NCBI GenBank assembly: GCA_013298545.1
Contig: JAAFIA010000022.1
Coordinates: forward strand, 1-55,650
Source: Bacteroidota bacterium
Lineage (GTDB): Bacteria; Bacteroidota; Bacteroidia; Palsa-965
Direction of reading: 5' to 3'
Length of the DNA stretch: 55,650 nt
Shown: one piece after another, positions 1,683 to 55,650 of the stretch
Layout: each line of letters opens with the position of its first letter
How positions within the stretch are numbered: position 1 is the stretch's first letter
Notes under the pieces: model-generated
The model's input: only the letters and a program-made list of their open reading frames with translations
What the model was told of the DNA's origin: nothing
Database searches by the model: none
Translations under genes and position numbers: made by a program

Positions 1683-2306
1683 ATGATTCAATACCCATCC
1701 AAACTCATTGAAGAAGCCGTAGAAGCCTTCGCCCAATTGCCCGGCGTTGGTCGTCGTACCGCTTTACGCTACGTTTTACATTTACTCAAACAAGACCCCG
1801 CGCTCGTCAAACGTTTTGGCGAAACCCTCAGCCGTTTTCGCGACGAACTCAAACATTGTACCCGTTGCCACAACGTCAGCGATACCGACATCTGTAGCAT
1901 TTGCAGCAATCCACGCCGCGATGCCACGCTCGTTTGTGTCGTAGAAGATGTACGCGATGTCATGGCCATCGAAAACACCCAACAATTCAATGGCTTGTAT
2001 CACGTGCTCGGTGGCATCATTTCGCCTATGGACGGAATCGGTCCAAACGATTTACACATTGATAGTTTGGTCGAACGCGTTGCCTCGGGCGAGACACAAG
2101 AAGTCATCATGGCCCTCAGCACAACCATGGAAGGCGATACCACCAATTTTTTTATTTATAAAAAGTTGGGCGTTTATCCCATTCGCATGACCACCATTGC
2201 TCGTGGTGTGGCCATTGGCGACGAAATCGAATATGCCGACGAAATTACGTTGGGCCGTTCTATTCTGAATCGCGTGCCTTACGAGCGTAGCATTTCTGTT
2301 CGTTAA
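1683..2306 (+). CDS. recR: Recombination mediator RecR
   Basis: A 207-residue protein with the full RecR architecture: helix-hairpin-helix at the N-terminus ([17 protein letters not shown]), a four-cysteine zinc finger (CTRC then CSIC, near residues 54-70), and a Toprim domain with [15 protein letters not shown] and the [16 protein letters not shown] loop. RecR acts with RecO (and RecF) to load RecA on SSB-coated single-stranded DNA at gaps. The start at 1683 gives the normal family length; the upstream in-frame ATG at 1611 lies in front of the promoter box and is rejected. lpxK follows 39 bases downstream on the same strand. Confidence 0.97.
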
Positions 2307-2345
2307 ACAACCGAGCACCCTACAAAAACTGTAAATTCGCGCTTC

Positions 2346-3440
2346 ATGAATCTGATCCGCGTTTTGCTTTGGCCCATTTCTATCCTTTACGGATGGATTG
2401 TTGCTATTCGCAATCGTTGTTTTGATTATGGTATTTTTAAAAGCACTTCTTTTGCATCGCCTTTGCTCATTGGCGTTGGAAACCTAACTGCGGGTGGAAC
2501 GGGAAAAACTCCACATGTAGAATACCTCGTCAAACTTTTAGCGGCCTATAAAATTGCTACGCTGAGTCGTGGTTATGGACGCAAAACAAGTGGTTTTCTT
2601 GAAGCCAATAACGACTCAACAGCAATGGATATTGGCGATGAGCCGCGCCAATTTCGGCATCGTTTTCCGCAACACGTTTGTGTAGCCGTAGATGAAAAAC
2701 GCGTACACGGTGTGAATCAGCTCCGACAAAAATACCCCGATCTCGATGTGGTGATTCTCGATGATGTTTTCCAACACCGAAAGATAAAACCTGGTTTACA
2801 AATTCTGCTCACCGATTATACGCGCTTATTTTACAACGACCAATTGTTGCCAACCGGATTGCTCCGCGAATCGAAATCGGGAGCAGCTCGCGCCGATATT
2901 ATCATTGTTACCAAAACACCCAATATCTTTTCGCCGCTCGAACGCAAACGCATCATACGTGAATTGAAACCGTTGCCGCATCAGCAAATTTATTTTTCAA
3001 CCATTCGGTATGGCGATTTTATTCCGTTTGGTCAGAAATCAACTTCGGCCATGCTTGGGCGCGATTATTATTTTGAACGCGGTTATACAATTGTACTATT
3101 AACCGGAATTGCCAATTCGCAACCGCTCGAATTTTACCTGCGCGATAAAGCCGAAAAACTAATCACTGTAAGATACAAGGATCACCACCAATTTTCTGTT
3201 GCTGATTTGCAAAAATTGCAGACCTTGTTTGCCGAAATTCCGAACGAAAAGAAAATTATTTTGACCACCGAAAAAGATGCCATGCGCCTCGATTTTCCCG
3301 AACTTCGTGAGCAATTGGCCGGACTTCCGGTGCATTACATTCCCATAGAAATTACATTTCACGATAAAGACACCGAATTATTCAACCAACAAATTCTCGA
3401 TTATGTACGAAAAAATTCAGGCAACAGTCGCATTCATTAA
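2346..3440 (+). CDS. lpxK: Tetraacyldisaccharide 4'-kinase (lipid A synthesis)
   Basis: A 364-residue LpxK, which phosphorylates the 4' position of tetraacyldisaccharide-1-phosphate to give lipid IVA at the inner membrane. The N-terminal hydrophobic helix (MNLIRVLLWPISILYGWIVA) is the usual membrane anchor, and the Walker A loop reads GNLTAGGTGKTP near residue 47. LSRGYGRK, DVVILDDVFQHRKI and the C-terminal TTEKDAMRL motif are also present. The gene shows that the organism makes lipid A. Its last 38 bases overlap the start of the purine nucleoside phosphorylase gene in another frame. An off-consensus promoter (TAAATTCG) ends 6 bases before the ATG. Confidence 0.96.
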   Translation: MNLIRVLLWPISILYGWIVAIRNRCFDYGIFKSTSFASPLLIGVGNLTAGGTGKTPHVEYLVKLLAAYKIATLSRGYGRKTSGFLEANNDSTAMDIGDEPRQFRHRFPQHVCVAVDEKRVHGVNQLRQKYPDLDVVILDDVFQHRKIKPGLQILLTDYTRLFYNDQLLPTGLLRESKSGAARADIIIVTKTPNIFSPLERKRIIRELKPLPHQQIYFSTIRYGDFIPFGQKSTSAMLGRDYYFERGYTIVLLTGIANSQPLEFYLRDKAEKLITVRYKDHHQFSVADLQKLQTLFAEIPNEKKIILTTEKDAMRLDFPELREQLAGLPVHYIPIEITFHDKDTELFNQQILDYVRKNSGNSRIH

Positions 3441-5740: not shown

Positions 5741-6505
5741 TCATTTTACGAGTGGATAATTTTCTGCGGCAAACGCACGTGTACATGCATTGAAATGCCA
5801 CCATTCTGTTTGAATGCCCCAAAATCCCCCCGCCCGCATGGCCGCCCGCAAAATTTGACGGTTCTGAATGTGTGCTTGTGTCAATTCGCCCTTCGCCAAC
5901 AATTCTTGCTCTTTTACCGGATGCGCTTCTTCGCCAAAAAAATCATACGGCGTGCCCATATCTAAGGGCCTTCCCAACGAGTCCAAAATACTCACATCTA
6001 CCGCCGCACCATAATTGTGAATCGAACCGCGTGCTGGATTGGATAAGTATTTTGTTTTTTCTGCGCGTGGAAGTTTCACCGTATCCCACATCAATTGCTG
6101 AATGTGTAAGGGCCGAACAGCATCATACACCACCAAACGATAGGACGTATGTATTGCCTGAAGGGCGTGTTGTGCTTTCGCCAATTTTTCGGCCACATCT
6201 TTTTGCAAATACGCATGCGTCAAATCACCATACATATCCAACTTCATGAAATTATCCGTTGTTGAATATTTTAAATCGACAACAAGTGTTGAATCGAGTG
6301 TTTGTACATCAACCAACCCTGCTGCTTGCAATTCCAATTCAAGCACCGATAGTTTAAGTGCTATTTTTTTATTCGCAGAATCAACGGATGGCGTATCTCT
6401 TTTGACAGGCTTAGTCATGTTGGCTGCGTTCTTTTTTGGAGATGTATCCAGTTGACATGCCGCTAGAAAAAAGAGCATCAAAAAACACATGACATGATTG
6501 CGCAT
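5741..6505 (-). CDS. VanX/DdpX-like D-alanyl-D-alanine dipeptidase, lipoprotein
   Basis: A 254-residue protein of the peptidase M15D family. The start at 6505 gives a lipoprotein leader (MCFLMLFFLAAC); the longer upstream reading lies beyond the promoter box and is rejected. Zinc-site motifs are present: SIHNYGAAVDV (the SxHxxGxAxD signature) near residue 165, and TEWWHF near the C-terminus, with VYDAVRPL supplying the conserved arginine. These enzymes hydrolyse D-Ala-D-Ala. As an envelope lipoprotein without vanH/vanA neighbours, the likely role is recycling peptidoglycan fragments rather than glycopeptide resistance (inference). Confidence 0.88.
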   Translation of the reverse strand: MRNHVMCFLMLFFLAACQLDTSPKKNAANMTKPVKRDTPSVDSANKKIALKLSVLELELQAAGLVDVQTLDSTLVVDLKYSTTDNFMKLDMYGDLTHAYLQKDVAEKLAKAQHALQAIHTSYRLVVYDAVRPLHIQQLMWDTVKLPRAEKTKYLSNPARGSIHNYGAAVDVSILDSLGRPLDMGTPYDFFGEEAHPVKEQELLAKGELTQAHIQNRQILRAAMRAGGFWGIQTEWWHFNACTRAFAAENYPLVK

Positions 6506-6509
6506 GACA

Positions 6510-6517
6510 CAAAGGTA
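6510..6517 (-). promoter_or_regulatory. -7 box (TACCTTTG) of the VanX-like gene
   Basis: On the minus strand TACCTTTG ends only 4 bases before the ATG at 6505, so the transcript should start at the initiation codon. This also fixes the lipoprotein start. Confidence 0.6.
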
Positions 6518-6548
6518 ATTGATCTCTATATTTTCCGATCTTCGCATC

Positions 6549-7049
6549 ATGTTTCGATCCATCGCCGATTTTCTAGCCGTTTGGGAATACGAGTACCAAG
6601 CCACGCTCAATTTGTTTCAACTTATTGACGAAAAAAAATTTCATGTCAAGCCACACGATAATATCCGAAGTATTTCGCGGCTGGCTTCGCACATCACAGA
6701 AACCATTGGCGAAATGCTGGAACGTACAGGATTGAAAATTGATGGGTTTGAAGAAACACAGGATGTTTTTCTAACCAAATCTGAATTACTCCAAGCTTAC
6801 GAGCACCATGCAAAATCGGCAATGCATGCTGTGCAGAAAAACTGGAAAGACGAAAACTTAAATGATGAGGTGATGATGTATGGCGAAACGTGGACAAAAG
6901 GAAAAGTTCTTGATGTACTTGTTCATCACCAAACACATCACCGCGGACAACTAACCACCATCATGCGGTTGCACAATATGCCTGTAATTGGAATGTACGG
7001 TCCAGCTTATGACGAATGGGTGCAGCTGAATATTCCACCGATGGATTAA
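6549..7049 (+). CDS. DinB-family four-helix protein
   Basis: A 166-residue protein of the DinB/YfiT-like fold. The three metal-binding histidines expected for the fold are visible: one in SRLASHITETIGE near residue 48 and two in VLVHHQTHHRGQL near residues 125-131. Members include thiol-dependent transferases and damage-induced proteins of unknown function; the substrate cannot be read from the sequence. The ATG at 6549 is preferred over 6519 because the DinB helix begins at FRSIADFLAVWEYEY. It is divergent from the VanX-like gene. Confidence 0.85.
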   Translation: MFRSIADFLAVWEYEYQATLNLFQLIDEKKFHVKPHDNIRSISRLASHITETIGEMLERTGLKIDGFEETQDVFLTKSELLQAYEHHAKSAMHAVQKNWKDENLNDEVMMYGETWTKGKVLDVLVHHQTHHRGQLTTIMRLHNMPVIGMYGPAYDEWVQLNIPPMD

Positions 7050-7051
7050 TA

Positions 7052-7086
7052 AAAAGAACGTCAGCAAAAAATGCTGACGTTCTTTT
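7052..7086. terminator. Intrinsic terminator between convergent genes
   Basis: A 15-bp stem with AAGAACGTCAGCA on the left and TGCTGACGTTCTT on the right, a 5-base A loop and a following T-run. It terminates dinB-like transcription and, in the other direction, the amidase gene. Confidence 0.88.
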
Positions 7087-7099
7087 TTTATGCTTGCGT

Positions 7100-7906
7100 T
7101 TACAGCGCAACTACGCCGCCACTCCAAAAGAAATTGCCGTTGGTATCTTTATACCACGTTGTATTGCCATTCACGGCATCGCCCTGAACAACATCGGTAT
7201 AATCGATAACTGTTCCTGGAGGCACAACATTAACAACAGCAGCGCGTGTACTTGGCGATCCTGAGCGGATATTGAGTTTTACGGTTGCTTTGACCTTACC
7301 TGTTTTGGGTGGAACAACAGTAACCGTATTGAGGCTTTGTTCGCCTGCACATTCCGCGTATTCAGCAACCACATCGCGAAGTAATTGCTCGTAGGTGCGG
7401 CGGCTTTGCATCAATCCGGTAACGGGATCTGTTTTGCGGGTTGGATCGAGAAAGCAATGACCCGTTATGGCTTTTTGTGGATCGAGGTTAAATTTCCAGC
7501 AGATGAATGCAATCACCCAGACATAACGCTTGTAAGCTTCGTCAGCATTTATTTTCGATCCGTAGCAATACTCCACACCAATTGCGGCATCGTTGGCATT
7601 GACTCCATACAATTGATTATCGGTAGTAACATTGTAAAAGACATGCCATGCTTTTTCGGGCGTACCCGTAAGCGCGGGCACACATTCGATAATTTCTTTA
7701 TCATCGACAAATAAATGCGCGGAGGCACTCATCTCATCTCTTGAATTTTCATAATAACTCACATTGCCCTTAGCAGTTGAATTGGGATTTCCCGTATCGT
7801 GCGCAACGATGAAAACTACTTTCGGAATAATTTTGCCCGAACGTCGCTTGCTGGGTGTAGTCAGGTATCTGGAAACAATTGGGTATTTGATCGTAAACTG
7901 GCTCAT
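7100..7906 (-). CDS. N-acetylmuramoyl-L-alanine amidase (Amidase_2) with C-terminal SH3-type domain, no signal peptide
   Basis: A 268-residue protein. Residues ~1-165 form an Amidase_2/PGRP-like domain with the zinc ligands in VFIVAHDTGN and TGHCFLDPTRKTDP, plus SAHLFVDD and AAIGVEYCYG. The C-terminal ~65 residues (KVKATVKLNIRSGSPSTRA ... WYKDTNGNFFWSGGVVAL) form a bacterial SH3 domain. It should cut the bond between N-acetylmuramate and L-alanine. There is no signal peptide or membrane segment, which is the layout of a phage endolysin rather than of a housekeeping amidase. It follows the membrane-protein gene by 18 bases in the same operon, suggesting that the partner gives access to the wall (inference). 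Confidence 0.88.
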   Translation of the reverse strand: MSQFTIKYPIVSRYLTTPSKRRSGKIIPKVVFIVAHDTGNPNSTAKGNVSYYENSRDEMSASAHLFVDDKEIIECVPALTGTPEKAWHVFYNVTTDNQLYGVNANDAAIGVEYCYGSKINADEAYKRYVWVIAFICWKFNLDPQKAITGHCFLDPTRKTDPVTGLMQSRRTYEQLLRDVVAEYAECAGEQSLNTVTVVPPKTGKVKATVKLNIRSGSPSTRAAVVNVVPPGTVIDYTDVVQGDAVNGNTTWYKDTNGNFFWSGGVVAL

Positions 7907-7924
7907 GGTGTAGGGGATTTTAAA

Positions 7925-9238
7925 TTAACCAACTGGAGGTTCCTCGTGAATTTCTTCTGTACCATCTGTTGTCGTTTCGGTAACAGGAAGCGTAGCATCT
8001 TGTGTGTCAGGGACACTAACAGGTGTAGTTGATGACGAAGCTGTTGCTGGTGTAGGATTTAAGGGCTGATTGTCGGTTTGGGTACCATTCGTTACTTGCA
8101 ATGGCTTTTCTTGCGTTTTCAAACCAATATATGTTCCTGCACTCAGTCCCATCAAAATAAGCAAGTTGTCATTGAGGTCGGGCATGCTGAAATCGGAAAT
8201 AGAACGACGGACGAAGAACATGCCTATGATGAGCGTCCAAACAACCATTTGTGCCCGATGAATACTCATGCCATTGGCATCGGTTAAAATATCGCGCCAA
8301 AAACTTCCACTCGCTTGGCGAAGAGGCGCGGTGGTTGCGGTATTCAATCCACTCATGCGCTCAACAACGCGCGACGCTCCTGCTGTGGTAACACTAATTC
8401 CAAGAAGATAAAGCGTATCTTCAGTAAGGTTGGGTAAAACACCCGTAATGGCCCAAATGTAGAGAAAAGAAAACACGATGATAAACGTCCAGAAACCAAG
8501 CTGAACGCGCGACAAGCTATATGGTGCTTTCAAATCATTGGTTGGATTGCCTGTATCGTCGCGGAAAATATCGCGGTTTTTTCCAGCCCAAACACTTAAG
8601 ACAAGTATTCCAATCATAAATAAGGTCATCAACCAAAACGAACGTTTCCGCATGATGAGAAAATCAAAATTATAGGCTAGACTTTTTGGAGCGAGCTTGA
8701 GTGGCAATTCTGTCATGGTACAAATACTAACCGTTACAGGCCGTTTCCATCCTTTTTCTGGTTGTTGAAGAATATCCCAAACGTCGTGCTCCTCTCTACC
8801 ATCACTCGTCGTCCGAATCAATTCAAACAAGAGCATGCTGTCGTTGTTTGAGAACATCGGTTTTATATCATCAAACGGCAAGCCATTGATGGAGAGTCTT
8901 AAATTGTTGCGTATTGCTGGATTACTGAAAGCGGAATCTTCGTGATTTAATGTTATGATAATGACATCGCCCAAACCACCTTCTGACATGCGCGCAGTAT
9001 CGCCTTCGCGACGCACACTTTTTATAAATGTACGCGCGCGTATCTGTTTCCAAAGAATCGCTACTGAGTCTTCGGAGTCAATGCTGAGTGGTGTGATGAT
9101 TGTTCGTTCAATCACTTTGACAACCGTATCGGCAGTCGAATCGTCTTTTTTACCGTTTTGAGAAAAAACGAGACCCGTAGTCAACAGCAAGAGTAAGGCT
9201 GTTAAACTAATTTGTTTGTAGGGGTGCATTAAAAACAT
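7925..9238 (-). CDS. Multipass membrane protein with periplasmic N-terminal domain (unknown function)
   Basis: About 437 residues. The leader (MHPYKQISLTALLLLLTTGLVFSQ) is followed by a ~170-residue extracytoplasmic region, then four transmembrane segments: WLMTLFMIGILVLSVWAG, LGFWTFIIVFSFLYIWAITG, LTEDTLYLLGISVTTAGAS and VVWTLIIGMFFV, with a further hydrophobic stretch near NLLILMGLSAGTYIGL. A Pro/Thr/Ser/Glu-rich tail ends the protein. The YSLSRVQLGFWTFI...LLGISVTTAGA membrane block resembles one I recall from other bacterial proteins of unknown role, so the call rests on topology. ATGs at 9229, 9238 and 9277 are possible; 9229 or 9238 best fits the leader. It is co-transcribed with the amidase. 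Confidence 0.75.
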   Translation of the reverse strand: MFLMHPYKQISLTALLLLLTTGLVFSQNGKKDDSTADTVVKVIERTIITPLSIDSEDSVAILWKQIRARTFIKSVRREGDTARMSEGGLGDVIIITLNHEDSAFSNPAIRNNLRLSINGLPFDDIKPMFSNNDSMLLFELIRTTSDGREEHDVWDILQQPEKGWKRPVTVSICTMTELPLKLAPKSLAYNFDFLIMRKRSFWLMTLFMIGILVLSVWAGKNRDIFRDDTGNPTNDLKAPYSLSRVQLGFWTFIIVFSFLYIWAITGVLPNLTEDTLYLLGISVTTAGASRVVERMSGLNTATTAPLRQASGSFWRDILTDANGMSIHRAQMVVWTLIIGMFFVRRSISDFSMPDLNDNLLILMGLSAGTYIGLKTQEKPLQVTNGTQTDNQPLNPTPATASSSTTPVSVPDTQDATLPVTETTTDGTEEIHEEPPVG

Positions 9239-37111: not shown

Positions 37112-38398
37112 TTATTCAATCGACGAGAAACAGCGATCCCACCGCACATGCCCCGCTTTTTTATCGTACGAGAAAAGTACAAATGAAGCGCGTCCCACAA
37201 TATGATCTTCAGGCACAAATCCCCAGTAGCGCGAATCCATAGATAGGTTACGGTTATCGCCCATCACGAAATAATAATTCATCGCAAACGTGTATGTCGT
37301 GGCCAATTTTCCATCGATGAAAACCGAATCGCCTTGCGTTTGTATAACGTGGTGTTCGTACTCCACAATGATGCGTTGCCAAAGCGAAAGACTATCAGCC
37401 GAAATCGGAATGGTTGCTCCTTTTTTCGGAACATAAAGAGGTCCAAAATTGTCGAGGTTCCAAACAAAATTTTCATCGTGCGGAAACACTTGTGGATCTT
37501 GCGTTCCGGCGCGCGCCAGTTCAGGCTCAACAGAAATGACATACTTCAATCGGCGCAAACTGTCCACCTGTTCGGGCAATAACGGAAGGCCAAACAACCA
37601 AAAACGTCCTTGTCTGCTTTCACGTACCATGCCAAGCGAATCGAAGCGAATGCTTTCGCGGTTGAGCGAATCGATTTTGATGATGTAACTAAATAGTGCG
37701 GCGGGCGGAAATGCTTGAATACGTCCATTCACCAATACTTCGCGATCCGCAATAACGAGCGTATCGCCCGGAAGCGCCATGCAACGTTTGATGAAGTGCG
37801 TGCGGTGATCGACCGGAAACGATTGTGGATGACCTTCGAGTGGCATGATGTCTTCGGCAGGAAAATTGAACACGAGAATATCGCCGCGTTCAATATCATC
37901 ATACCCCGGAAGACGAGTATATGGAATAGAAATCCAATCGAGGTAAGCGGGTGTTGTTCCCCACAAGCGTTGATGCGAAAAAGGAAGCGAAAGCGGTGTT
38001 TGCGGAATGCGCGCGCCATACGCCAATTTATTCACCACAATGTAATCGCCAGCCAGCAAGGTATTGTCCATCGAATCGGATGGAATGGCAAACGGTTCAA
38101 AGACGAGTAATTTGAGAATTAAAACACCAATGAATGCAAAGATGAGGGCTTCGCCCCATTCGCGCCAAATGTTTTTTTTGCGGCGCGTTTGTTCGCCCGA
38201 TTCCGAAACCGGAGCAATCTCCGTGGTGTTTTCGGAACTAGTTTCAGCAATCGGATCTATACTTGTTTCGTCGCCTTGTGGTAATTCTTCAGGCAGATTG
38301 ATGTGCGGAATTTCCTCGTTCGGTATATCGTGCAGCGAATCGTCCGATTGATTTTCGGGATTTTCGGAGATTGGATTTTCGTGCTCGTTATCGCTCAT
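37112..38398 (-). CDS. lepB: Signal peptidase I with acidic N-terminal extension
   Basis: A 428-residue type I signal peptidase (S26). An unusually acidic N-terminal arm of about 75 residues (rich in E/D/N/S) precedes the single transmembrane helix (ALIFAFIGVLILKLLVF). The catalytic serine is S109 in AIPSDSMDNTLLAGDY; the general-base lysine lies in HFIKRCMALPGDTLVI. Box E is at YFVMGDNRNLSMDSRYWGFVPEDHIVG. It cleaves leader peptides on the outer face of the inner membrane. It is longer than its Escherichia coli counterpart (324) because of the arm and an insertion of ~150 residues between boxes D and E. It follows a second lepB gene by 6 bases. Confidence 0.93.
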   Translation of the reverse strand: MSDNEHENPISENPENQSDDSLHDIPNEEIPHINLPEELPQGDETSIDPIAETSSENTTEIAPVSESGEQTRRKKNIWREWGEALIFAFIGVLILKLLVFEPFAIPSDSMDNTLLAGDYIVVNKLAYGARIPQTPLSLPFSHQRLWGTTPAYLDWISIPYTRLPGYDDIERGDILVFNFPAEDIMPLEGHPQSFPVDHRTHFIKRCMALPGDTLVIADREVLVNGRIQAFPPAALFSYIIKIDSLNRESIRFDSLGMVRESRQGRFWLFGLPLLPEQVDSLRRLKYVISVEPELARAGTQDPQVFPHDENFVWNLDNFGPLYVPKKGATIPISADSLSLWQRIIVEYEHHVIQTQGDSVFIDGKLATTYTFAMNYYFVMGDNRNLSMDSRYWGFVPEDHIVGRASFVLFSYDKKAGHVRWDRCFSSIE

Positions 38399-38404
38399 AC
38401 AGGC

Positions 38405-40072
38405 TTAGGCTTTGCCTTTCGCTTTCGGTGCAGTTTTTTTGTCCTTGCCAGAACGTTTGCGGTATTCTTGATACCCAACATAGATGGCGATGATTCCAAC
38501 AAGATACCAAAGATAAGATTTAGACAATCCATCTTTGCCTACAAACGAAATCATGCGATTGGAGCGAATGCCGTCGTGTTCGCCTTTCGAGAACCAAACG
38601 AAAACAGGTTTTCCAACCACATTTTCTTGCGGCACAAATCCCCAGTAGCGCGAATCGAGTGAGTTGTGGCGGTTATCGCCCATCATGAAATAATAATTTT
38701 GTTTGAACGTGTAGGTGGTTGCAACTTGCCCATTGATGTAAATGGCATTGCCTTTCACTTCCAATTTATTGTGTTCATACACTTCGATGATGCGTCGCCA
38801 AAGCGGGAGGCTATCGAGGCTGAGACGAACCGTCATGCCTTCTTTGGGAATGACAAGCGGGCCAAAATTATCGCGGTTCCATTTGAAGGTTTGCGGAACA
38901 TGAGGAAAAACATCGTCCTCGGGAAACGCTGAATCTGCGGGATACATAACTGGTTGCGATTTGCTTCCAAGCAAAGCATCAAATGCCCCAATTTTTGAAA
39001 TGGAGACGGGAGAATAGTATGGATATGCAGTATCTCCTGTTTGGCCAATACCATCTGTAACACCAATATCTTTCAAGCGCAGTTCAAATTCTTCGGCTTG
39101 TCCTTGTGATAATTGTGGGACATTAAATTTCCGAGCAAATCGTGCTTCTTTGGGCAATTTTTCTTCTTTGCCGTTGATGAAAATAGCAGTATTGCGAATT
39201 TGGAATTTATCGCCAGCAACCGCAACGCAACGTTTGACATAATTGTCTTCTTTATCAACGGGACGAACGAGAATTTCGTCGCCATCAATCATTTGCCGAC
39301 GTACATCGGCTTCTGAACGGCTGCTTTGTCGGGCCATGTTGCGCACAATGGCGTAGTAACTGGCGCTAGTATTTGCTTTATAAACGGTATCGCCTTCGGG
39401 GAAATTAAAAACCACAATATCGTTGCGTTCTACATTTCCAAAACCGGGCAGACGTAAATGCGGCAGCTCGATCCAATCTAAAAATGAAGGCGATGTTTCA
39501 GTAAATGGCATCGTGTTATGTGTAAACGGAAATGTGAGTGGCATGGTCGGAACCTTTGCACCATAACTCATTTTGCTTACAAATAAATAATCGCCTGTGA
39601 GGAGCGTACTTTCCATAGAAGAAGATGGAATCTGAAAAGCCTCGAAGAAAAATGTGCGGATGAGTGTTGCGGCAATGATCGCAAAAACACCCGCTTCGCC
39701 CCATTCTTTCCACATACTGCGTTTTTCTTTGCTTTCAACAACACCAACAAATTTCACCTCTTTCGAAAAACCGAGAAAGGGCACCCAAACAAAATAACCG
39801 AGTACCACTTTGACGTGATCTGCGAAACTGCGTTTGTTGAAACAGTTAGACAACAAGACAAGCATGACGGCGAGCATGTAAAAACCAACTGTTGGAATGA
39901 GTACGAGAATGGCCCACCACCAAGGGCGTTGAATAATTTTGAGCCAGATCACAATATTATACACTGGAACAAATGCTTTCCAGCCAGGATAACCTGCTTT
40001 TTCAAATGCTTTGTAAAGGCCGACGAGTAATCCGATCAGCGAGAGCCACAAAAAAATATGTATTGGACGCAT
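38405..40072 (-). CDS. lepB: Signal peptidase I with N-terminal multi-helix (DUF5684-like) module
   Basis: A 555-residue type I signal peptidase. An additional N-terminal module of ~110 residues contains three hydrophobic helices (MRPIHIFLWLSLIGLLVGLY, AFVPVYNIVIWLKI, WAILVLIPTVGFYMLAVMLVLL) and the AGYPGWKAFVPVYN motif of DUF5684-type proteins. The catalytic serine is in QIPSSSMESTLLTGDYLF, the lysine in NYVKRCVAVAGDKF, and box E in YFMMGDNRHNSLDSRYWGFVPQENVVG. The C-terminus adds another transmembrane segment (YLWYLVGIIAIYVGY) and a lysine-rich tail. Two non-identical LepBs side by side suggest divided substrate sets. Confidence 0.93.
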   Translation of the reverse strand: MRPIHIFLWLSLIGLLVGLYKAFEKAGYPGWKAFVPVYNIVIWLKIIQRPWWWAILVLIPTVGFYMLAVMLVLLSNCFNKRSFADHVKVVLGYFVWVPFLGFSKEVKFVGVVESKEKRSMWKEWGEAGVFAIIAATLIRTFFFEAFQIPSSSMESTLLTGDYLFVSKMSYGAKVPTMPLTFPFTHNTMPFTETSPSFLDWIELPHLRLPGFGNVERNDIVVFNFPEGDTVYKANTSASYYAIVRNMARQSSRSEADVRRQMIDGDEILVRPVDKEDNYVKRCVAVAGDKFQIRNTAIFINGKEEKLPKEARFARKFNVPQLSQGQAEEFELRLKDIGVTDGIGQTGDTAYPYYSPVSISKIGAFDALLGSKSQPVMYPADSAFPEDDVFPHVPQTFKWNRDNFGPLVIPKEGMTVRLSLDSLPLWRRIIEVYEHNKLEVKGNAIYINGQVATTYTFKQNYYFMMGDNRHNSLDSRYWGFVPQENVVGKPVFVWFSKGEHDGIRSNRMISFVGKDGLSKSYLWYLVGIIAIYVGYQEYRKRSGKDKKTAPKAKGKA

Positions 40073-47008: not shown

Positions 47009-48256
47009 ATGGCTCGGATCATTCCGTTTCAAGGTATTCGTCCCACACGCGATAAGGTTCACCTAGTCGCTTCGCGTTCGGTTGACAATTATGGCAAAAC
47101 CGATTTGCATGAAAAACTGCGGAGCAATCCGTTTAGTTTTTTGCATGTGATCAACCCCGATTTTAAAGACGGGAAACGTTCGCGCCCAGGTTCGCCAGAG
47201 CGGTTGCGTAAAGTAAAAGCGCAATACGAAGCGTTTCAGAATGAAGGAATTTTTGTGCAAGATGAAAAGCCATGCTACTATGTTTACCGGCAATACAAGC
47301 AAGGCAATACCTACACCGGAATTATTGCGTGTACAAGCATTGATGATTATTTGAATGGTACAATCAAGATTCATGAACAAACCTTAACAGACCGCGAGAG
47401 CAAACTCAAAGAGTATTTAGAAATCTGCGATTTTAATGCGGAGCCTGTTTTGTTTTGTTATCCCGATGATGCGGCGATTGATGCCGTGATTGCGACAAAA
47501 ACGAATGAACGTGCGGAGTATGATTTTACGACGACTGATCGGGTACGACATTCGTTTTGGGTAATCGACGGAAAAAAAGATACGACCACTATTCGTCAAG
47601 CTTTTGAAGCGATGCCTGCGGTGTATATTGCCGATGGGCATCACCGCTCGGCTTCTTCTACGTTGCTTGGGCAATCGCGACGCGAAAAAAATCAGAATTA
47701 TTCGGGCAATGAGCCTTGGAATTTTTACTTGGGCGTTTTTTTCCCAGAAACGCAATTGCGGATTTATGATTTCAATCGCGTGGTGAAGGATTTGAATGGC
47801 TTGGATGCACCGCAGTTTTTAGAAAAATTACGTGCTTCGTTTGAGATTCAAGATCACGGAAAAACAATTTTTACACCACAACACATTCATCAGTTTGGAC
47901 TTTATCTGGAAGGAAACTGGTTTGAATTGCGTTTGAAAAAAGAATTGATTCATGATGATGAACCCGTTGGTTCGTTGGATGCTTTTTTGTTGACAAAACA
48001 TGTTTTAGATCCGATTTTAGGAATCGTTGATTTGAAAACGGATAAACGGATTGGTTTTGTTTCGGGCATCAAAGGGCCGGAAGAATTGATGAATCAAGTG
48101 GATCATTGGAAATTTCAGGCGGCGTTTTCATTGTTTCCGGTTTCGATGAAACAACTGAAATACATTGCCGATACGAATAGCATTATGCCGCCCAAAACAA
48201 CTTGGGTTGAGCCGAAAATGCGCAGTGGTTTGGTGATGTTTTCGATTGCAGATTAA
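47009..48256 (+). CDS. DUF1015-family protein
   Basis: A 415-residue cytoplasmic protein of the DUF1015 (SerC-linked) family: IIPFQGIRPTRDKVHLVASR, NPFSFLHVINPDFK, CYYVYRQYKQGNTYTGIIAC, HEQTLTDRESKLKEYLEI, YIADGHHRSASS (a conserved histidine-rich loop) and FFPETQLRIYDFNRVVKDL. The family commonly lies beside serA/serC in Bacteroidota and Firmicutes; its activity is not established. It begins 3 bases after the serA stop codon, so it belongs to the serine operon. Confidence 0.9.
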   Translation: MARIIPFQGIRPTRDKVHLVASRSVDNYGKTDLHEKLRSNPFSFLHVINPDFKDGKRSRPGSPERLRKVKAQYEAFQNEGIFVQDEKPCYYVYRQYKQGNTYTGIIACTSIDDYLNGTIKIHEQTLTDRESKLKEYLEICDFNAEPVLFCYPDDAAIDAVIATKTNERAEYDFTTTDRVRHSFWVIDGKKDTTTIRQAFEAMPAVYIADGHHRSASSTLLGQSRREKNQNYSGNEPWNFYLGVFFPETQLRIYDFNRVVKDLNGLDAPQFLEKLRASFEIQDHGKTIFTPQHIHQFGLYLEGNWFELRLKKELIHDDEPVGSLDAFLLTKHVLDPILGIVDLKTDKRIGFVSGIKGPEELMNQVDHWKFQAAFSLFPVSMKQLKYIADTNSIMPPKTTWVEPKMRSGLVMFSIAD

Positions 48257-48280
48257 TTCATTTTTAAATTGTAGTTGGGT

Positions 48281-48931
48281 ATGGCTTCCGTAGCAGAAAA
48301 CATGAAACAGACTAAGGCGCAATTGCCCAACGAAGTAACACTTGTTGTGGTTTCTAAAACGCAACCCAATGTGTTGATTGAGGAAGCTTATACTAGCGGA
48401 CAACGGGTGTTTGGCGAAAATCGGGTGCAAGAATTAGTACCTAAATACGAAGCCTTGCCCAAAGATATTGCGTGGCATTTGATTGGTCATTTGCAAACCA
48501 ATAAAGTCAAATACATTGCGCCTTTTGTAGCTTTGATTCACTCGGTGGATAGCGAAAAATTATTGGTAGAGGTTGATAAACAGGCGGCGCGGTGTAATCG
48601 CAAAATTGAGGTGTTGTTACAAATGTATATTGCGCAAGAGGAAACAAAATTTGGTTTCGATGTGGCGGAAGCGGAGGAATTACTGAGTAGGCAAACCGAT
48701 TTTCAACATGTGCGTATTGTTGGCTTGATGGGCATGGCCACGAATACGGATAACAGCGATCAGGTGCGGAAGGAGTTTCGTGGATTGGCGCAATTCTTCA
48801 AAACACAACAGGAAAAATATGGCGCAACACATTTTCACACGTTATCTATGGGCATGAGTAGCGATTGGAAAATTGCCGTAGAGGAAGGAGCAACAATGAT
48901 TCGCATTGGTAGTTCGATTTTCCGATCCTAA
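48281..48931 (+). CDS. YggS/PLPBP-type pyridoxal-phosphate homeostasis protein
   Basis: A 216-residue single-domain PLP-binding protein (alanine-racemase-like barrel). The PLP lysine is in LVVVSKTQPNVLIEEAY near residue 26; FGENRVQELVPKYE, WHLIGHLQTNKVKYIAP, HSVDSEKLL, GLMGMAT and LSMGMSSDWKIAVEEGATMIRIGSSIF (in pieces) are classic. It buffers PLP and affects amino-acid metabolism rather than catalysing a known reaction. Start ATG 48281; a TTG six bases upstream is less likely. It is downstream of PLP-dependent SerC in the same block. Confidence 0.94.
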   Translation: MASVAENMKQTKAQLPNEVTLVVVSKTQPNVLIEEAYTSGQRVFGENRVQELVPKYEALPKDIAWHLIGHLQTNKVKYIAPFVALIHSVDSEKLLVEVDKQAARCNRKIEVLLQMYIAQEETKFGFDVAEAEELLSRQTDFQHVRIVGLMGMATNTDNSDQVRKEFRGLAQFFKTQQEKYGATHFHTLSMGMSSDWKIAVEEGATMIRIGSSIFRS

Positions 48932-49026
48932 TTGCTGGTAATGGTGCATTTCATTTCTTCCCGATTTCCGTTTTCATCTCTAGCCAATACGAATCTATTT
49001 ATTTGTTGTATCAACCAAATTAAGGT

Positions 49027-49974
49027 ATGCACTTTTCAGGCGAGCTTGCTGCAATTCTAACCACACTCGTTTGGAGTATTGGTATTTTTCCGTTTACAGA
49101 AGCATCGAAACGCTTGGGGTCTAATCCGCTCAATCATTTTCGGTTGGTGGTTGCGATTATTTTGTTGTGGGTGTTATTGGCGGCGTATTATGGGTTGGGT
49201 ATTTCGGACTTGTTTTTACAACCGGATTGGAAGCAGTGGTTGTGGTTAGGCTTATCGGGAATTATGGGTTTGACGATTGGCGATTATTTTGCGTTTCGGT
49301 CGATGGAGTTGTTGGGGGCGCGGCTGAGTAGTGCGTTTAGTACGTTATCGCCGGTGGCGGCATTGTTGTTTGGTTTATTGTTTTTATCGGAGGATATTAA
49401 TGTGTGGGGGATTTTAGGCTTGGTGGTAACGGTTGGGGGTGTTTTGTGGCTGGGATTGAGCAAGGGTGGGACGGCGGCGGGGCATTTGAGTGCGGCGGAT
49501 GTGCGGTTGGGGATTGTGGCGGCGGTCTTATCGCCTGTGTGTCAGGGCATCGGTTTAGTTTTTTCAAAACTGGCGTTTGATGTGGAGGGTGCGGAGGCGT
49601 TGTTGCCGGCACATGCGGCGTGGATGCGGATGGTGTGCGCGGGGGGATCGTTGTATTTGTTTACGGTAATGCGAGGGAGTTGGCGAATAATCCATGCGCC
49701 ACTTTTAGAAAATCGGGATGGTGGCTTAATTTATGGATTGGCGGGGGCCTTCTTTGGACCATTTTTAGGCATGTGTTTATCCATGTACACCGTATCCAAA
49801 CTGGATGCATCGGTAGCGCAGACTATTTTTTCGCTTGTTCCTGTATTTGTAACACTTGGGGCCATGATTTTTTACCGCGAACGGGTTTCGCTACTGGCTT
49901 GGATGGCAATGCTGATTTCAATTGCAGGTGTTCTTGTGATTGTTTGGCGCAATGAAATTGGTGCTTGGTTTTAG
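49027..49974 (+). CDS. EamA/DMT-family transporter
   Basis: A 315-residue membrane protein with ten hydrophobic helices in two EamA repeats (helices from LAAILTTLVWSIGIFPF to GGVLWLGLS, then VRLGIVAAVLSPVCQGIG to ISIAGVLVIVW). Sequences like VWSIGIFPFTEASKRLG, GLTIGDYFAFRSMELLGARL and PVFVTLGAMIFYRERVS fit the drug/metabolite transporter superfamily. The substrate is unknown. The middle of the gene (about 49300-49700) is rich in G-ending codons (GCG, GGG, TTG, GTG), unlike its neighbours. Confidence 0.9.
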   Translation: MHFSGELAAILTTLVWSIGIFPFTEASKRLGSNPLNHFRLVVAIILLWVLLAAYYGLGISDLFLQPDWKQWLWLGLSGIMGLTIGDYFAFRSMELLGARLSSAFSTLSPVAALLFGLLFLSEDINVWGILGLVVTVGGVLWLGLSKGGTAAGHLSAADVRLGIVAAVLSPVCQGIGLVFSKLAFDVEGAEALLPAHAAWMRMVCAGGSLYLFTVMRGSWRIIHAPLLENRDGGLIYGLAGAFFGPFLGMCLSMYTVSKLDASVAQTIFSLVPVFVTLGAMIFYRERVSLLAWMAMLISIAGVLVIVWRNEIGAWF

Positions 49975-50008
49975 ACTCCATTACGCGGGTATTTCTTATT
50001 TTCGCGGC

Positions 50009-50855: not shown

Positions 50856-53800
50856 ATGAAGAAGTTTTACACACAACTACGCAGTATATCGAAGACTGCA
50901 CGAGCGTGGATGATTGCAGCCGGACTATTAGCAAGTACCGGTATTGCATCTGCCCAAGTTTCTACGTATTCGTTTGCACAGAGCGCAGGCACTTACACAC
51001 CCATTACAGGTGGTACAGTACTTGGTGTTCCGGGTAATGACGATACGAACTTTCCAGACAATCCGATTGGATTTTCATTCTGTTACAATGGCGTAACCTA
51101 TACTCGCTTTGGTGTCAATGCCAACGGCTGGATTGTTATGGGCAATGTAGCCATGTTTAGTTCCTACACGTCTATCAGCTCGGGAACAAACAACAATGTC
51201 ATCTCTGCATTCAATATGGATATTCAGGGAGATGGTACAACTGGTGATTTGCAATTCGCTACTATTGGATCTGCACCCAACCGTACATTGGTTGTGCAAT
51301 GGACCAATTATGACCGCTATCAGAGTGTTTTAAATAACGATAACTACAACTTTCAGATTCGTTTAAGTGAATCTAACGGTAATGTGGATATTGTTTATGG
51401 AACATATACTGTTGCCTCTGCAATTCAAAACGTACAAGTTGGTCTTCGTGGCAACAGCAACGCAGACTTCAACAACCGTCAAGTTTCTAACGGTTTACAA
51501 ACTTGGGCTACATCTATTGCTGGTGCAACCAATACTGCAACTTGCGAAATCAATAACGTTCCCTTGTTTCCGGCTGCTGGTCAGACATATACATGGACAC
51601 TTCCTGCCGCTGCTGCCCCACCAATCACGCCTTCGTTTACAGCAGTAACAGCTACGGCGATGACCTTGAACTGGGTGGATAACTCTACCACAGAGGCGAA
51701 CTTCGTGGTTCAACGCTCTACTGATAATATTACGTTTACAACAGTTTCTACCATTCCTTCTACCTCAATTGCTACAACAGGCACAGCCTATAACTACGTA
51801 GCAAGCGGTTTGATGTCTGGTACACTTTATTACTGGCGTATTCTTGCTGCAAATACAAACTGCGGTGGTTCATTCCTCGCGATGCAGCAAGCAACTCTTG
51901 CTGGAACAATGTGCGGTACCTATACCGTAGGGCCAACAGGTGCTTATACTTCGTTAACGGCGGCATTTGCGGCTGTTGCTACGAACGGCGTACTTTGTCC
52001 ATTGGTATTCGACTTACAAGCGGCTTATGTCAGTACGGTTGAAACCTTCCCGCTCAACATTCCAAACTTGGGAACTGGTCCTGCAACAAGCATTACCGTT
52101 CGTCCTGAATTGGGTGCTACCAACCTTTCCATTGTTAGTAATGCCCTGCAAACCATCAACTACAACGGTGCAAACTATGTAAACTTTGATGGTCGTCCAG
52201 GCAGTGTTGGTGTTGTGAGTCACCTCACCATCGAAAATACATCGGTTACGGGTACTGCACTTAACTTAGCCAATGATGCGTCTAACAATACGTTCAACTA
52301 TTTGAAGTTCCGTGGTGTCAACACCAGCACAATTAGCGGTGTTGTTGCACTTGGTAACGCAACTTTGTTTGGTAACAACAACATGACGTTCACCAACAAC
52401 GAATTTTATGATGGAGCTACACAACCAACCAACCTCTTCTACGCAGCTAACAGCACATTGAACACCATTAGTAGCGGTTTGAATATCTCAAACAATCGCT
52501 TCTACAACTGGTTCAATGCAGCAACGACTTCTACTGCGATTACTATTTCTACTGGTAATACAGCTGCTACGGTTGCTAACAACAGTTTCTATCAAACTGC
52601 TACGCGTACATTTACTACAGGTGTTCTCACCTATGCCGTAAACTTAACACCAGGTTCTGGTTCGAACACAGGTAACTTTACTGTAACTGGAAACTATTTC
52701 GGTGGTACTGCTCCTTTGTGCGGTGGTACAGCTTATACAAGCCTTGGTGCTGTTGCACATCGTTTCATTGGTCTTCAGTTAAACACAGGAACTGGTGGAG
52801 CAAATAGCGTTCAAGGTAACACTTTCCGCAACTTCAACTTTACCACAACAAGTGCAACCACAACAACCAATGGTATTTGGTGTGCCATTAACTTAATTGG
52901 TACAAGTGGTGCTAATAACGTAGGTAACCTTGTGCCCAATGTTATCGGCAGCAACACTGCAAACGGACAAATTGTAACAACAACATCTGGCACAGGTGGT
53001 CTCACAGTTGGTATCAACTCATCTGCTTCAGGTGTTCAGAACATTTCTAACAACCAGATTGGTGGTATTACCGCTAACTCTACATTAGCAACTATTTCTA
53101 GTAGCGTTTTGGGTATTGGTGTTTCTTCTGGTACTGCAGTTACTATCAGTAACAACATCATTGGCAGCACATCACTCACTAGCAGCTTGATTAATGCAAC
53201 TAGTACAAGTGCTACTGCTGGTCTTGTTCAAGGTATTCAATGTTCTGCCTTTAACACGACATTACCAGGCAACCAAATCACCAACAACGTGATTTCTAAC
53301 TTGACCAACCAATATGCCGGTACATCGACAAGTGGTGTTACGCGTGGTATTTTTGCATCAAGTGGTATCAATACCATTTCTGGTAACACGATCAGCAACC
53401 TCAGCAATACAAACCCAAGTACTGGTTTAACAACATTGGCCGCAGTACAAGGGATTACTTTATCATCTGCTACAAGTGGTGCTAACCAAACTGTTTTCAA
53501 CAATACCATCACCAATTTGGCGAGCTTGGCTTTGACAGGAAATCCACAAGTTGTTGGTATCAATGCTTCTGGTTCAACTTTGCAAACCACATTTGTACAC
53601 CGCAATACAATTCGTGGTCTTGGTGCTGTATCCTCTGGTTCTGCTGTTATGCACGGTATCCAGATCTTCGGTGGTATTGTTCGTGTTTACAACAACTTTA
53701 TCAATATTGGAACTGATGCCTTGGGCAACTCGCTCACTTTGTCGCATGAGTTTAGCGGTATTACCAAAAACACCACAAACCGTGCAACAGTAGCATTCAA

Positions 53801-55650
53801 TACTGTAAATATTGCCGGAACAGGTGTCGGTGTTGGTACTGCAAACACGTATGCATTCCGTCGTTTGGCGAATCCAACCGCAACTCCTTCCGATTCAACA
53901 TACAGCAACATCTTCTCGAACTTCCGTTCAAACGGAGCTTCAACGGGATCGCACTATGCAATCAGTTTGAATAACGGAACCAACTACCTTGCTAATGGTA
54001 ACAACTACTTTGGTAATGGAACTGGTTATGTTTTTGGTTCATTCAATGCAGCAAACGTTCTTGGCTTACCAGCTTGGCAAGTTGCTACAACGCAAGATGC
54101 CAACTCATTCTCTGTTAATCCAAACTACATCAGCGCAACAAACTTGCACATCAACAACGCAGTTCAAAGTGCTTTGGAATCTCGTGCTACGCCGATGAAT
54201 ATCAACATCGATATTGATAACGATGTGCGTCCAGGCCCTGTTGCTTCTGTAAATGGTGGTGGTACTGGTCCAGATATTGGTGCTGACGAATTTGACGGTA
54301 TTCCGGTTAACGTTGATATTGGTATTCAATTGCTTGTTAGCCCTGCTGCTAGCGGTTGTTACACCAACTGTCACCCAATCCGTGTTCGTTTGCGCAACTA
54401 TTCTACACAAACGTTGAACATGGCTGTGAATCCTGTTACCATTACAGGTTCTGCATCTGGTCCAAACCCCGCAACATTTGGTCCGCTTGTGATTTCTTCG
54501 GGAACACTTGCTCCAAACGCGACATTGGACACAACCATCTTTGCTTGTTACAACATGACCGCATTGGGTACATACTCGTTCAACTTTACCACCACGCAAG
54601 TCAACGACTTCATTACAGGTAACGATGCGATGGCAACAACAGCCGTTACGGTTGCTGGTGGTACTGCGTCTGTTGTTCCAAATCCAATCTGTTTGGGTTC
54701 TGCTACCGTGTTGACGGTAACTGGTCAAACAAACGGTGGAACAATTCAGTGGCAATCTTCTCCAGACAACATCACCTGGACAAACATTGTTGGTGCTACA
54801 ACAAACGGATATTCTGTTACACCAACAGATACCACGTTCTACCGTGCGATGATCTGCGGTTTGCATCCTTCTACATCTGATACTATTCATACGATTCTGG
54901 TTCAACCTGCTGTTGGTGTTAATGCTAGCCGTTGTGGTGCTGGTAACATTACCCTTACTGGTTCAGGCTCTGGAGTATTGAATTGGTATGCAAATCCAAC
55001 TGGTGGTACTTCATTGGCAACCAACGATTCCTTGACCGTCTTTCTTGCTGCAACAGATACATTCTACTTGGAGAACTCGTTTAACTCGGCTACAATTGGA
55101 ACGCCTACCGCTCCAACGTGTTTCCCGACCTATTCATTCGCATGTTCTTCAAACGATTTCATCAACAACTTCTCTACAACTGGTGGAACAACAAACATTT
55201 CTAACCTGAACTCAGGATGTAATGGTATTGCTCCAAACAACACCACATTCTTCCCAACACAAATTGTAACGACTGTTGCTGGCGGTTCATTCAATATTGC
55301 GGCTCAGGCGGGTGCGGCATTTGGCCAAGGTTTCCGTTTGTGGATTGACTACAATAACGATGGCGACTTTGCTGACGTTGGCGAAAACGTTTGGGCTTCT
55401 GCAACATCAAATACGCTTGTCAATACAGCGACCATTACAGTTCCATCAAACGTAACTGGCGGTCCAAAACGCATGCGTCTCATGTGCCGTTATGCTACTG
55501 TTCCAACGGCTACTGATTACTGCTTGGCAACTGCATCTTTTGGTGAGGTTGAAGAATATACGTTGATGGTTAACTTGACATGTACTGCAACCCGCGTACC
55601 AGTTATTGCTACCATCACGCCAGCTCCTCCAATCACCCTTGCTTCTGGTA
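50856..55650 (+). CDS. Very large secreted repeat protein, 3' end beyond the window (partial)
   Basis: At least 1,598 residues, open at the window end. The signal peptide is long (MKKFYTQLRSISKTARAWMI then AAGLLASTGIASAQ). Residues ~35-250 form a jelly-roll-like domain (GVNANGWIVMGN, VVQWTNYDRYQ, VQVGLRGNSNADFNNRQVS), ~255-345 an Fn3 domain (MTLNWVDNSTTEANFVVQRS). Residues ~350-1130 are a Ser/Thr/Asn-rich region of right-handed beta-helix type with recurring ISNN.I, GNTISNL and VNNNTI units, and ~1150-1370 contain CARDB/Ig-like blocks. A GEVED domain near 1480-1590 (LWIDYNNDGDFADVGENVWA, FGEVEEYTLMV) follows. A T9SS sorting domain is expected downstream but is not in the window. It is probably a surface adhesin or matrix protein. 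Confidence 0.87.
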   Translation, partial: MKKFYTQLRSISKTARAWMIAAGLLASTGIASAQVSTYSFAQSAGTYTPITGGTVLGVPGNDDTNFPDNPIGFSFCYNGVTYTRFGVNANGWIVMGNVAMFSSYTSISSGTNNNVISAFNMDIQGDGTTGDLQFATIGSAPNRTLVVQWTNYDRYQSVLNNDNYNFQIRLSESNGNVDIVYGTYTVASAIQNVQVGLRGNSNADFNNRQVSNGLQTWATSIAGATNTATCEINNVPLFPAAGQTYTWTLPAAAAPPITPSFTAVTATAMTLNWVDNSTTEANFVVQRSTDNITFTTVSTIPSTSIATTGTAYNYVASGLMSGTLYYWRILAANTNCGGSFLAMQQATLAGTMCGTYTVGPTGAYTSLTAAFAAVATNGVLCPLVFDLQAAYVSTVETFPLNIPNLGTGPATSITVRPELGATNLSIVSNALQTINYNGANYVNFDGRPGSVGVVSHLTIENTSVTGTALNLANDASNNTFNYLKFRGVNTSTISGVVALGNATLFGNNNMTFTNNEFYDGATQPTNLFYAANSTLNTISSGLNISNNRFYNWFNAATTSTAITISTGNTAATVANNSFYQTATRTFTTGVLTYAVNLTPGSGSNTGNFTVTGNYFGGTAPLCGGTAYTSLGAVAHRFIGLQLNTGTGGANSVQGNTFRNFNFTTTSATTTTNGIWCAINLIGTSGANNVGNLVPNVIGSNTANGQIVTTTSGTGGLTVGINSSASGVQNISNNQIGGITANSTLATISSSVLGIGVSSGTAVTISNNIIGSTSLTSSLINATSTSATAGLVQGIQCSAFNTTLPGNQITNNVISNLTNQYAGTSTSGVTRGIFASSGINTISGNTISNLSNTNPSTGLTTLAAVQGITLSSATSGANQTVFNNTITNLASLALTGNPQVVGINASGSTLQTTFVHRNTIRGLGAVSSGSAVMHGIQIFGGIVRVYNNFINIGTDALGNSLTLSHEFSGITKNTTNRATVAFNTVNIAGTGVGVGTANTYAFRRLANPTATPSDSTYSNIFSNFRSNGASTGSHYAISLNNGTNYLANGNNYFGNGTGYVFGSFNAANVLGLPAWQVATTQDANSFSVNPNYISATNLHINNAVQSALESRATPMNINIDIDNDVRPGPVASVNGGGTGPDIGADEFDGIPVNVDIGIQLLVSPAASGCYTNCHPIRVRLRNYSTQTLNMAVNPVTITGSASGPNPATFGPLVISSGTLAPNATLDTTIFACYNMTALGTYSFNFTTTQVNDFITGNDAMATTAVTVAGGTASVVPNPICLGSATVLTVTGQTNGGTIQWQSSPDNITWTNIVGATTNGYSVTPTDTTFYRAMICGLHPSTSDTIHTILVQPAVGVNASRCGAGNITLTGSGSGVLNWYANPTGGTSLATNDSLTVFLAATDTFYLENSFNSATIGTPTAPTCFPTYSFACSSNDFINNFSTTGGTTNISNLNSGCNGIAPNNTTFFPTQIVTTVAGGSFNIAAQAGAAFGQGFRLWIDYNNDGDFADVGENVWASATSNTLVNTATITVPSNVTGGPKRMRLMCRYATVPTATDYCLATASFGEVEEYTLMVNLTCTATRVPVIATITPAPPITLASG

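Follow-up and report, generated by a model that had tools for sequence, protein, structure and literature searches.

A duplicated-hairpin membrane protein of an unnamed family and a leaderless phage-type amidase recur as a gene pair in Bacteroidota and Pseudomonadota: a possible bacterial lysis or export module

What could a bacterium do with a phage-type wall amidase that is encoded directly behind a membrane protein and has no visible export signal? The question is raised by two minus-strand genes of a Bacteroidota bacterium (assembly GCA_013298545.1, contig JAAFIA010000022.1) in the window, which is the whole stretch of 55,650 nucleotides analysed here and also the whole contig. The upstream gene encodes P0002 (7925..9277), a 450-aa membrane protein of an unnamed family, and the downstream gene encodes P0001 (7100..7906), a 268-aa leaderless N-acetylmuramoyl-L-alanine amidase with an SH3-like tail; the spacer between them is 18 nt (7907..7924). 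A preliminary description had noticed this gene order, with which the coordinates and open reading frames (ORFs) agree, and had proposed a lysis or release cassette; the observation is confirmed and the interpretation is partly supported. We consider it an even call whether the pair is a bacterial lysis or export module of the holin-slot and endolysin kind, working like type 10 secretion or a lysis cassette.

Judged by its sequence, the amidase is an endolysin of phage type and lacks a visible export signal. P0001 matched Pfam Amidase_2 over the curated cut-off (E 4.2e-18; residues 30-161, 7424..7819) and falls in the phage endolysin family PHROG_833 (E 7.1e-41), the match spanning catalytic domain and tail (residues 9-260). 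Its best phage matches, 58-61% identical across roughly 70% of its length, were endolysins of Brevibacillus phages. The leader was looked for with a hydropathy script on the N-terminal 60 residues (17-residue windows), which is not a signal-peptide predictor; the maximum was 0.72 in P0001 and at most 1.26 across 26 amidases. The window amidase has H36, E112, H150 and D160, of which H36, H150 and D160 are presumably metal ligands, as in Amidase_2 structures. Across 42 aligned rows, some of them fragments, H36 is found in 41, E112 in 40-41, H150 in 40 and D160 in 37. Thus the endolysin layout of the preliminary description holds for the Amidase_2 domain and the missing leader, while its SH3 part is a weak call, the SH3_3 match reaching 19 bits under a cut-off of 27. 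The tail (7103..7291), which ends in FFWSGGVVAL, is named SH3-like from this sub-threshold match and from alignment to the amidase of a same-genus relative, G003 (the window's own genome is G000).

P0002 gave no match in NCBIfam, none under E 0.23 in Pfam and none at E 1 among PDB sequences, and none of 12 family cores matched Pfam at E 0.01. A limited look at the open literature recognised no paper describing this membrane family, and the portion of PMC12419801 that was available held nothing on it. In the AlphaFold2 model (31 sequences, mean predicted local distance difference test score, pLDDT, 76.8), a beta-sandwich domain predicted to be exported (residues 84-207, 8657..9028) is followed by five predicted transmembrane helices (residues 211-389, 8111..8647, with DSSP) at 211-235, 255-278, 286-312, 339-362 and 370-389. 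The last four helices are an internal duplication of one hairpin unit (hhalign E 9.9e-15, probability 98.4): repeat 1 (residues 250-312, 8342..8530) carries S..R.Q...W ... LLGIS and repeat 2 (residues 335-392, 8102..8275) carries S.HR.Q...W ... LMG.S.GTY. The C-terminal tail (7928..8110) has 61 residues, including 14 Thr and 9 Pro, and is disordered by composition and low pLDDT. It would be cytoplasmic because five helices follow an exported N-domain; the loop charges (K/R vs D/E, 2 vs 4 and 2 vs 2, and 1 vs 10 in the tail) do not clearly back this topology. The multipass character and the Pro/Thr-rich tail reported earlier therefore stand, the periplasmic N-domain is a prediction, and the ORF runs to 9277, the start given before (9238) being a later in-frame ATG that may be the true start. 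The beta-sandwich is missing from short family members of about 185-270 aa. VIA-align of the model gave a best Z of 7.2, under the tool's telling level, to Ig/IPT-like domains, with the rows mostly on the sandwich.

The pair was searched for in other genomes, as the preliminary description had proposed, and it recurs. A named-genome scan with two amidases gave 30 loci, and 29 (21 non-Bacillota, 8 Bacillota) after L184 (30% identity) was dropped as too distant; 19 of the 21 non-Bacillota loci are readable upstream, L155 and L169 being left out as the contig starts there. The membrane family is the directly upstream same-strand gene in 13 of these 19 (L157, L158, L160-L163, L165-L168, L171, L173 and L174), a rate that differs from a frequency in nature since the set rests on amidase patterns favouring close relatives. 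Two of the 13 are from Pseudomonadota (L160 Methylomonas, L163 Methylovulum) and 11 from Bacteroidota. The genes are closely spaced, with gaps of 11-16 nt in eight pairs, -4 in two, 62 and 72 in two and 120 in one. Some protein with a predicted membrane segment occupies the upstream slot in 17 of the 19 loci.

The membrane family itself is infrequent. A four-row model found it in 14 of 295 genomes of the class, the two weakest (E 4e-5, 5e-4) being doubtful; a twelve-row model found it in 26 of 395 genomes of the phylum and in 25 of 294 genomes of another class, two samples that overlap, so that the counts are not additive. The recurrence of the pair is beyond chance, because 13 of 19 loci are paired whereas the family occurs in only 26 of 395 phylum genomes. 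In the window's order (12 genomes) the membrane family is present in three and the amidase in two, and the two genomes with the amidase, G000 and G003, both carry the pair, which is an accessory trait and not a housekeeping one. A named-genome scan with membrane alignments found 31 stretches and confirmed none; four pattern matches to the membrane protein on viral contigs were likewise not confirmed, and no family member was seen near the amidase in seven viral loci.

Pairwise distances of amidases and membrane proteins are correlated (r 0.71 over 14 pairs, 0 of 5000 permutations), a correlation that could also arise from shared descent alone. L161 was left out of this test for its split frame: at 2268-3062 its amidase frame is divided into two ORFs, and this copy may be broken or mis-sequenced. 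In the amidase tree, rooted at midpoint only and with six short or motif-less rows dropped, all but one of the 22 non-Bacillota genome rows group together (21 rows; 87/92, a fork outside the well-supported set). The exception, L175, falls with the rows from Bacillota and viral contigs, which lie beside that group.

What sits in the upstream slot of the Bacillota loci suggests a role for the membrane protein. This slot is held by a PHROG-recognised holin in four of the eight loci (L179, L181, L182 and L183; E 9.7e-21 to 1.1e-6) and in L176 by a protein of 113 residues that has one segment and matches no holin; the other three have no membrane protein there. These four Paenibacillus loci share with the window the amidase family, the gene order and the close spacing, while a different membrane family holds their holin slot. 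Two of them, L182 and L183, have amidase domains identical to the ones on viral contigs L011 and L012. The window pair, unlike this Bacillota holin-endolysin order, lies in a chromosomal setting without recognised phage genes. The Gallionella slot gave a weak holin match (E 6.7e-4). The replacement of a holin by the membrane family in the same gene order is the strongest argument for a holin role, and a duplicated-hairpin family of unnamed kind in this slot is the most interesting part of the finding. The lysis or release cassette proposed before thus gained support from the cross-phylum recurrence, the PHROG_833 kinship and the Bacillota holins.

The association was also surveyed from the membrane side, in 47 family genes at 46 loci. 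Amidases make up 7 of 101 close operon neighbours vs 0 of 553 other genes (Fisher p 1.7e-6; p 7.8e-5 without the window and G003), an enrichment that is partly circular because the amidase search model was built from those seven neighbours. The membrane protein is therefore not always found without the amidase, an outcome that had been named as refuting the cassette; yet at 40 of the 47 family genes no amidase is a close operon neighbour. Further wall hydrolases accompany the amidase in several supporting loci: it is fused to a phage lysozyme in L168 and L174 and to an M23 peptidase in L160, and a phage lysozyme is a separate gene beside the pair in L157. It is also fused to a subtilisin in L141, and a patatin gene lies beside the pair in L149. 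The L160 enzyme (5986-8553), directly behind the membrane gene, has 855 residues with amidase, peptidoglycan-binding and M23 parts and no visible leader.

We suggest that the membrane protein would, once triggered, allow the folded amidase through the inner membrane, by a pore or another translocation activity; the trigger is perhaps sensed by the exported beta-sandwich. By cutting the MurNAc (N-acetylmuramic acid)-L-alanine bond, the amidase would next open the wall. A fraction of the cells might be lysed, or the wall might be opened locally, and cytoplasmic products could escape. How bacteria lacking a known lysis cassette release large particles or enzymes from the cytoplasm is, to our knowledge, an open question for most Bacteroidota, and a recurrent endolysin-type enzyme with an unnamed holin-slot protein makes such release directly testable. 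If the family works as a holin, it would offer a different-looking way to bring folded enzymes through the membrane, and the other partners of the family would point to additional systems of export or self-lysis.

Among known systems, type 10 secretion is alike in pairing a membrane protein and a phage-related wall hydrolase at a site outside any phage, as described for YenLC of Yersinia and SmaLC of Serratia (PMC10847048). In contrast to those, the membrane protein here is no recognisable holin, it has an exported beta domain and duplicated hairpins, and no spanin pair was seen in the operon. Membership is not claimed, because no spanin gene was found among the ORFs of at least 60 aa in the cassette and holin homology is limited to weak matches; that the pair nevertheless works like a type 10 system is, in our estimate, a balanced possibility. 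Whether type 10 systems lyse the cell or open it locally is disputed; PMC10847048 argues for lysis, while a review (PMC9527704) and a 2026 Salmonella study (PMC13284979) favour non-lytic use. The same review describes clostridial TcdE/UviB-type holins, in which a holin-slot protein is likewise used by the bacterium itself and UviB is associated with an amidase. Those holins serve named toxins or bacteriocins, whereas the window pair has no identified cargo.

Several observations weigh against a holin and endolysin module. On the amidase side, an unrelated protein with at least one predicted membrane segment holds the slot in 4 of the 19 non-Bacillota loci (L156, L159, L164, L172), and no ORF of at least 50 aa ends there in two (L170, L175). 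The partner label changes five times on the amidase tree, at least three changes being forced by well-supported branches. No spanin-like gene was found in the operon among minus-strand ORFs of at least 60 aa at 6610-7100, shorter or distant ones not being covered; the sole such ORF, of 80 aa, lies inside the convergent gene. On the side of the membrane protein, P0002 is larger than most phage holins. Foldseek searches of PDB and BFVD, which covered the helices only together with the rest of the model, returned no hit at E <= 0.001, and the helical part may still have a known fold. The holin family phrog_3427 matched 3 of 31 relatives weakly (best E 0.0013), and two other holin families matched single relatives weakly (E 0.015 and 0.021); with weak PHROG matches only, holin homology of the family was not accepted.

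The family genes without a close amidase count here as well, since the family also stands beside proteases, lipases, phosphoesterases, nucleases or no hydrolase at all. In 40 partner proteins chosen by eye for Pfam, a choice for which no rate is given, the operon neighbours include papain-like peptidases (Peptidase_C1; L041, L105), a subtilisin (Peptidase_S8; L041), a patatin (L109), an M15/VanY peptidase (L115), metallophosphoesterases (L102, L110), nucleases (L110, L142; including Endonuclease_NS) and an arginine-deiminase-like enzyme (PAD_porph; L143). The absence of an amidase at most family genes and this variety of neighbours mean that export of wall hydrolases may not be the general job of the family. 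The nucleases of L110 and L142 have their own hydrophobic N-terminus, that of L142 also with a type IX secretion system (T9SS) sorting domain, and therefore not every partner needs the membrane protein for export. In L041 (9340-9579), a 79-residue stand-alone protein with the FWSGGV motif of the window amidase tail lies between the membrane gene and the subtilisin; it has no Pfam match and is matched by the amidase-tail model.

The same neighbours could be read as parts of a conflict or self-destruction module, in which the family is a shared sensor or membrane effector with interchangeable hydrolases and the amidase provides one of the means of killing, for instance during abortive infection. 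The Pfam-confirmed Peptidase_C1, Peptidase_S8, Patatin, Metallophos, VanY/M15, Endonuclease_NS and PAD_porph neighbours, although picked by eye, are consistent with such a module, as is the patchy distribution of the family. However, PADLOC gave one match only (0.0082) on 31 family members, the partner enzymes not being scanned, and no defence-type gene was recognised by eye beside the window pair; we regard this alternative as unlikely.

Further proteins in some lineages point to the outer membrane. A protein of about 350-420 residues was detected in eight loci, six of them with a family membrane gene, which it follows (L016, L110, L118, L140, L142, L146), and two in which the amidase was seen but no gene of the family (L172, and L169, where the contig start truncates the locus); a protein of about 126 residues is also found in four of the eight. 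Pfam gave no match in two members of the longer protein that were tested. The L172 model (pLDDT 71) has 12 strands, and its top PDB matches are outer-membrane proteins, namely FadL, an OmpA of Bdellovibrio and autotransporter barrels; the best has E 5.2e-5, and the TM-scores are low (0.23-0.28). These loci could reflect non-lytic export across the envelope, with an inner-membrane duplicated-hairpin protein, an exported hydrolase, a small beta protein and an outer-membrane barrel. Such a route would fit the barrel-like model, but neither extra protein is present in the window operon or the G003 operon, and the L110 and L142 nucleases with their own N-terminus would not need it; as an account of the pair it is quite unlikely.

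Starting from the lysis or export module, we tentatively extend the proposal to an undescribed envelope-opening system of Bacteroidota and Pseudomonadota, an extension that we regard as rather doubtful. It would consist of a new holin-like duplicated-hairpin family, whose long form has an exported beta-sandwich, and of interchangeable hydrolases, joined in some lineages by the small beta protein and the outer-membrane barrel. The inner-membrane, wall and outer-membrane steps would then proceed without phage-derived holins or spanins.

Routine muropeptide recycling, with a cytoplasmic AmpD-like amidase that follows a membrane gene by chance, is a very unlikely explanation. AmpD is leaderless and of the Amidase_2 family, as is the window amidase, and the NCBIfam AmpD model matches P0001 (E 2.8e-7). 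The score is 30.1 bits, however, vs an equivalog cut-off of 143, which P0001 misses, and endolysin families score far better. P0001 differs from AmpD also in its SH3-like tail and membrane partner, and the amidase is sporadic in the order, as counted above, while its membrane partner is recurrent.

The setting of the pair was examined for phage genes and for contractile injection system (CIS) genes. At E 1e-12, 37 PHROG families were matched by 100 flanking genes, taken from the initial 16 kb of the window and from 13 related loci. The 25 families displayed comprise 10 with a name (three of them endolysins) and 15 without; none of the 10 named families is a terminase, portal, capsid, tail or integrase. 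The G003 flank (14 of 114 genes) was left out, as it includes CIS genes that would match phage tail families. The earlier statement that no phage genes are near is thus borne out for structural and integrase genes among the named families; a single phage gene could be hidden in the flanks because 15 families are nameless and 12 were not displayed.

A CIS cluster of G003 begins 393 nt after the pair and runs on the same strand; its sheath matches solved CIS sheaths (E 6.6e-110). This cluster, right after the pair (L014 11345-18796; G003:C17 34344-62873), ends, by eye, with a large cargo-like and an ankyrin-like gene. The window's genome has two CIS clusters with confirmed sheaths on other contigs (L061 and L062, contigs C140 and C102), and the tandem sheath genes of C140 resemble the G003 cluster. 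With a CIS reference set taken from the G000 and G003 clusters, no CIS genes were found near other family or amidase loci in scans of 13, 20 and 29 loci, nor in the window, seven viral and 45 genomic loci (15 new). These scans cover flanks of under 1 to about 10 kb, and the window, being a whole contig, does not allow linkage past its ends to be judged.

It had also been suggested that the pair is a remnant of a CIS, and co-occurrence with injection-system genes, seen in G003 only, does not support this in general. Genomes G002 and G005 have CIS clusters and no match to either pair protein, and in G011 the family and CIS genes are on different contigs. On the other side of the pair, past one intervening gene, both G000 and G003 have a polymerase X gene (63% identical, named via the solved PolX), whether a CIS is present or not. 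In G002, G005, G006 and G008 neither gene of the pair was seen next to polX; in G011 about 10 kb separate polX from a family gene. That the pair is the release arm or a remnant of a CIS is thus highly improbable, in spite of the G003 neighbourhood and the G000 clusters, and it was rejected as a general explanation, G003 being the sole case, among the loci examined, of the pair next to CIS genes. That neighbourhood may be due to chance or to a lineage-specific link.

Downstream of the amidase gene, a palindromic terminator-like hairpin (7051..7087, listed on the plus strand) lies between it and the convergent gene. It is a consensus match only, and the region has fewer such sites (2) than the mean of its shuffles (5.2). 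By eye, the window flanks contain housekeeping-like and secreted-protein-like genes, among them two adjacent long signal-peptidase-I-like genes (37112-40072, minus strand). A repeat-rich open frame of 1598 residues (50856-55649) runs off the window end, and strong GC skew was detected just before it, at 48001-50000.

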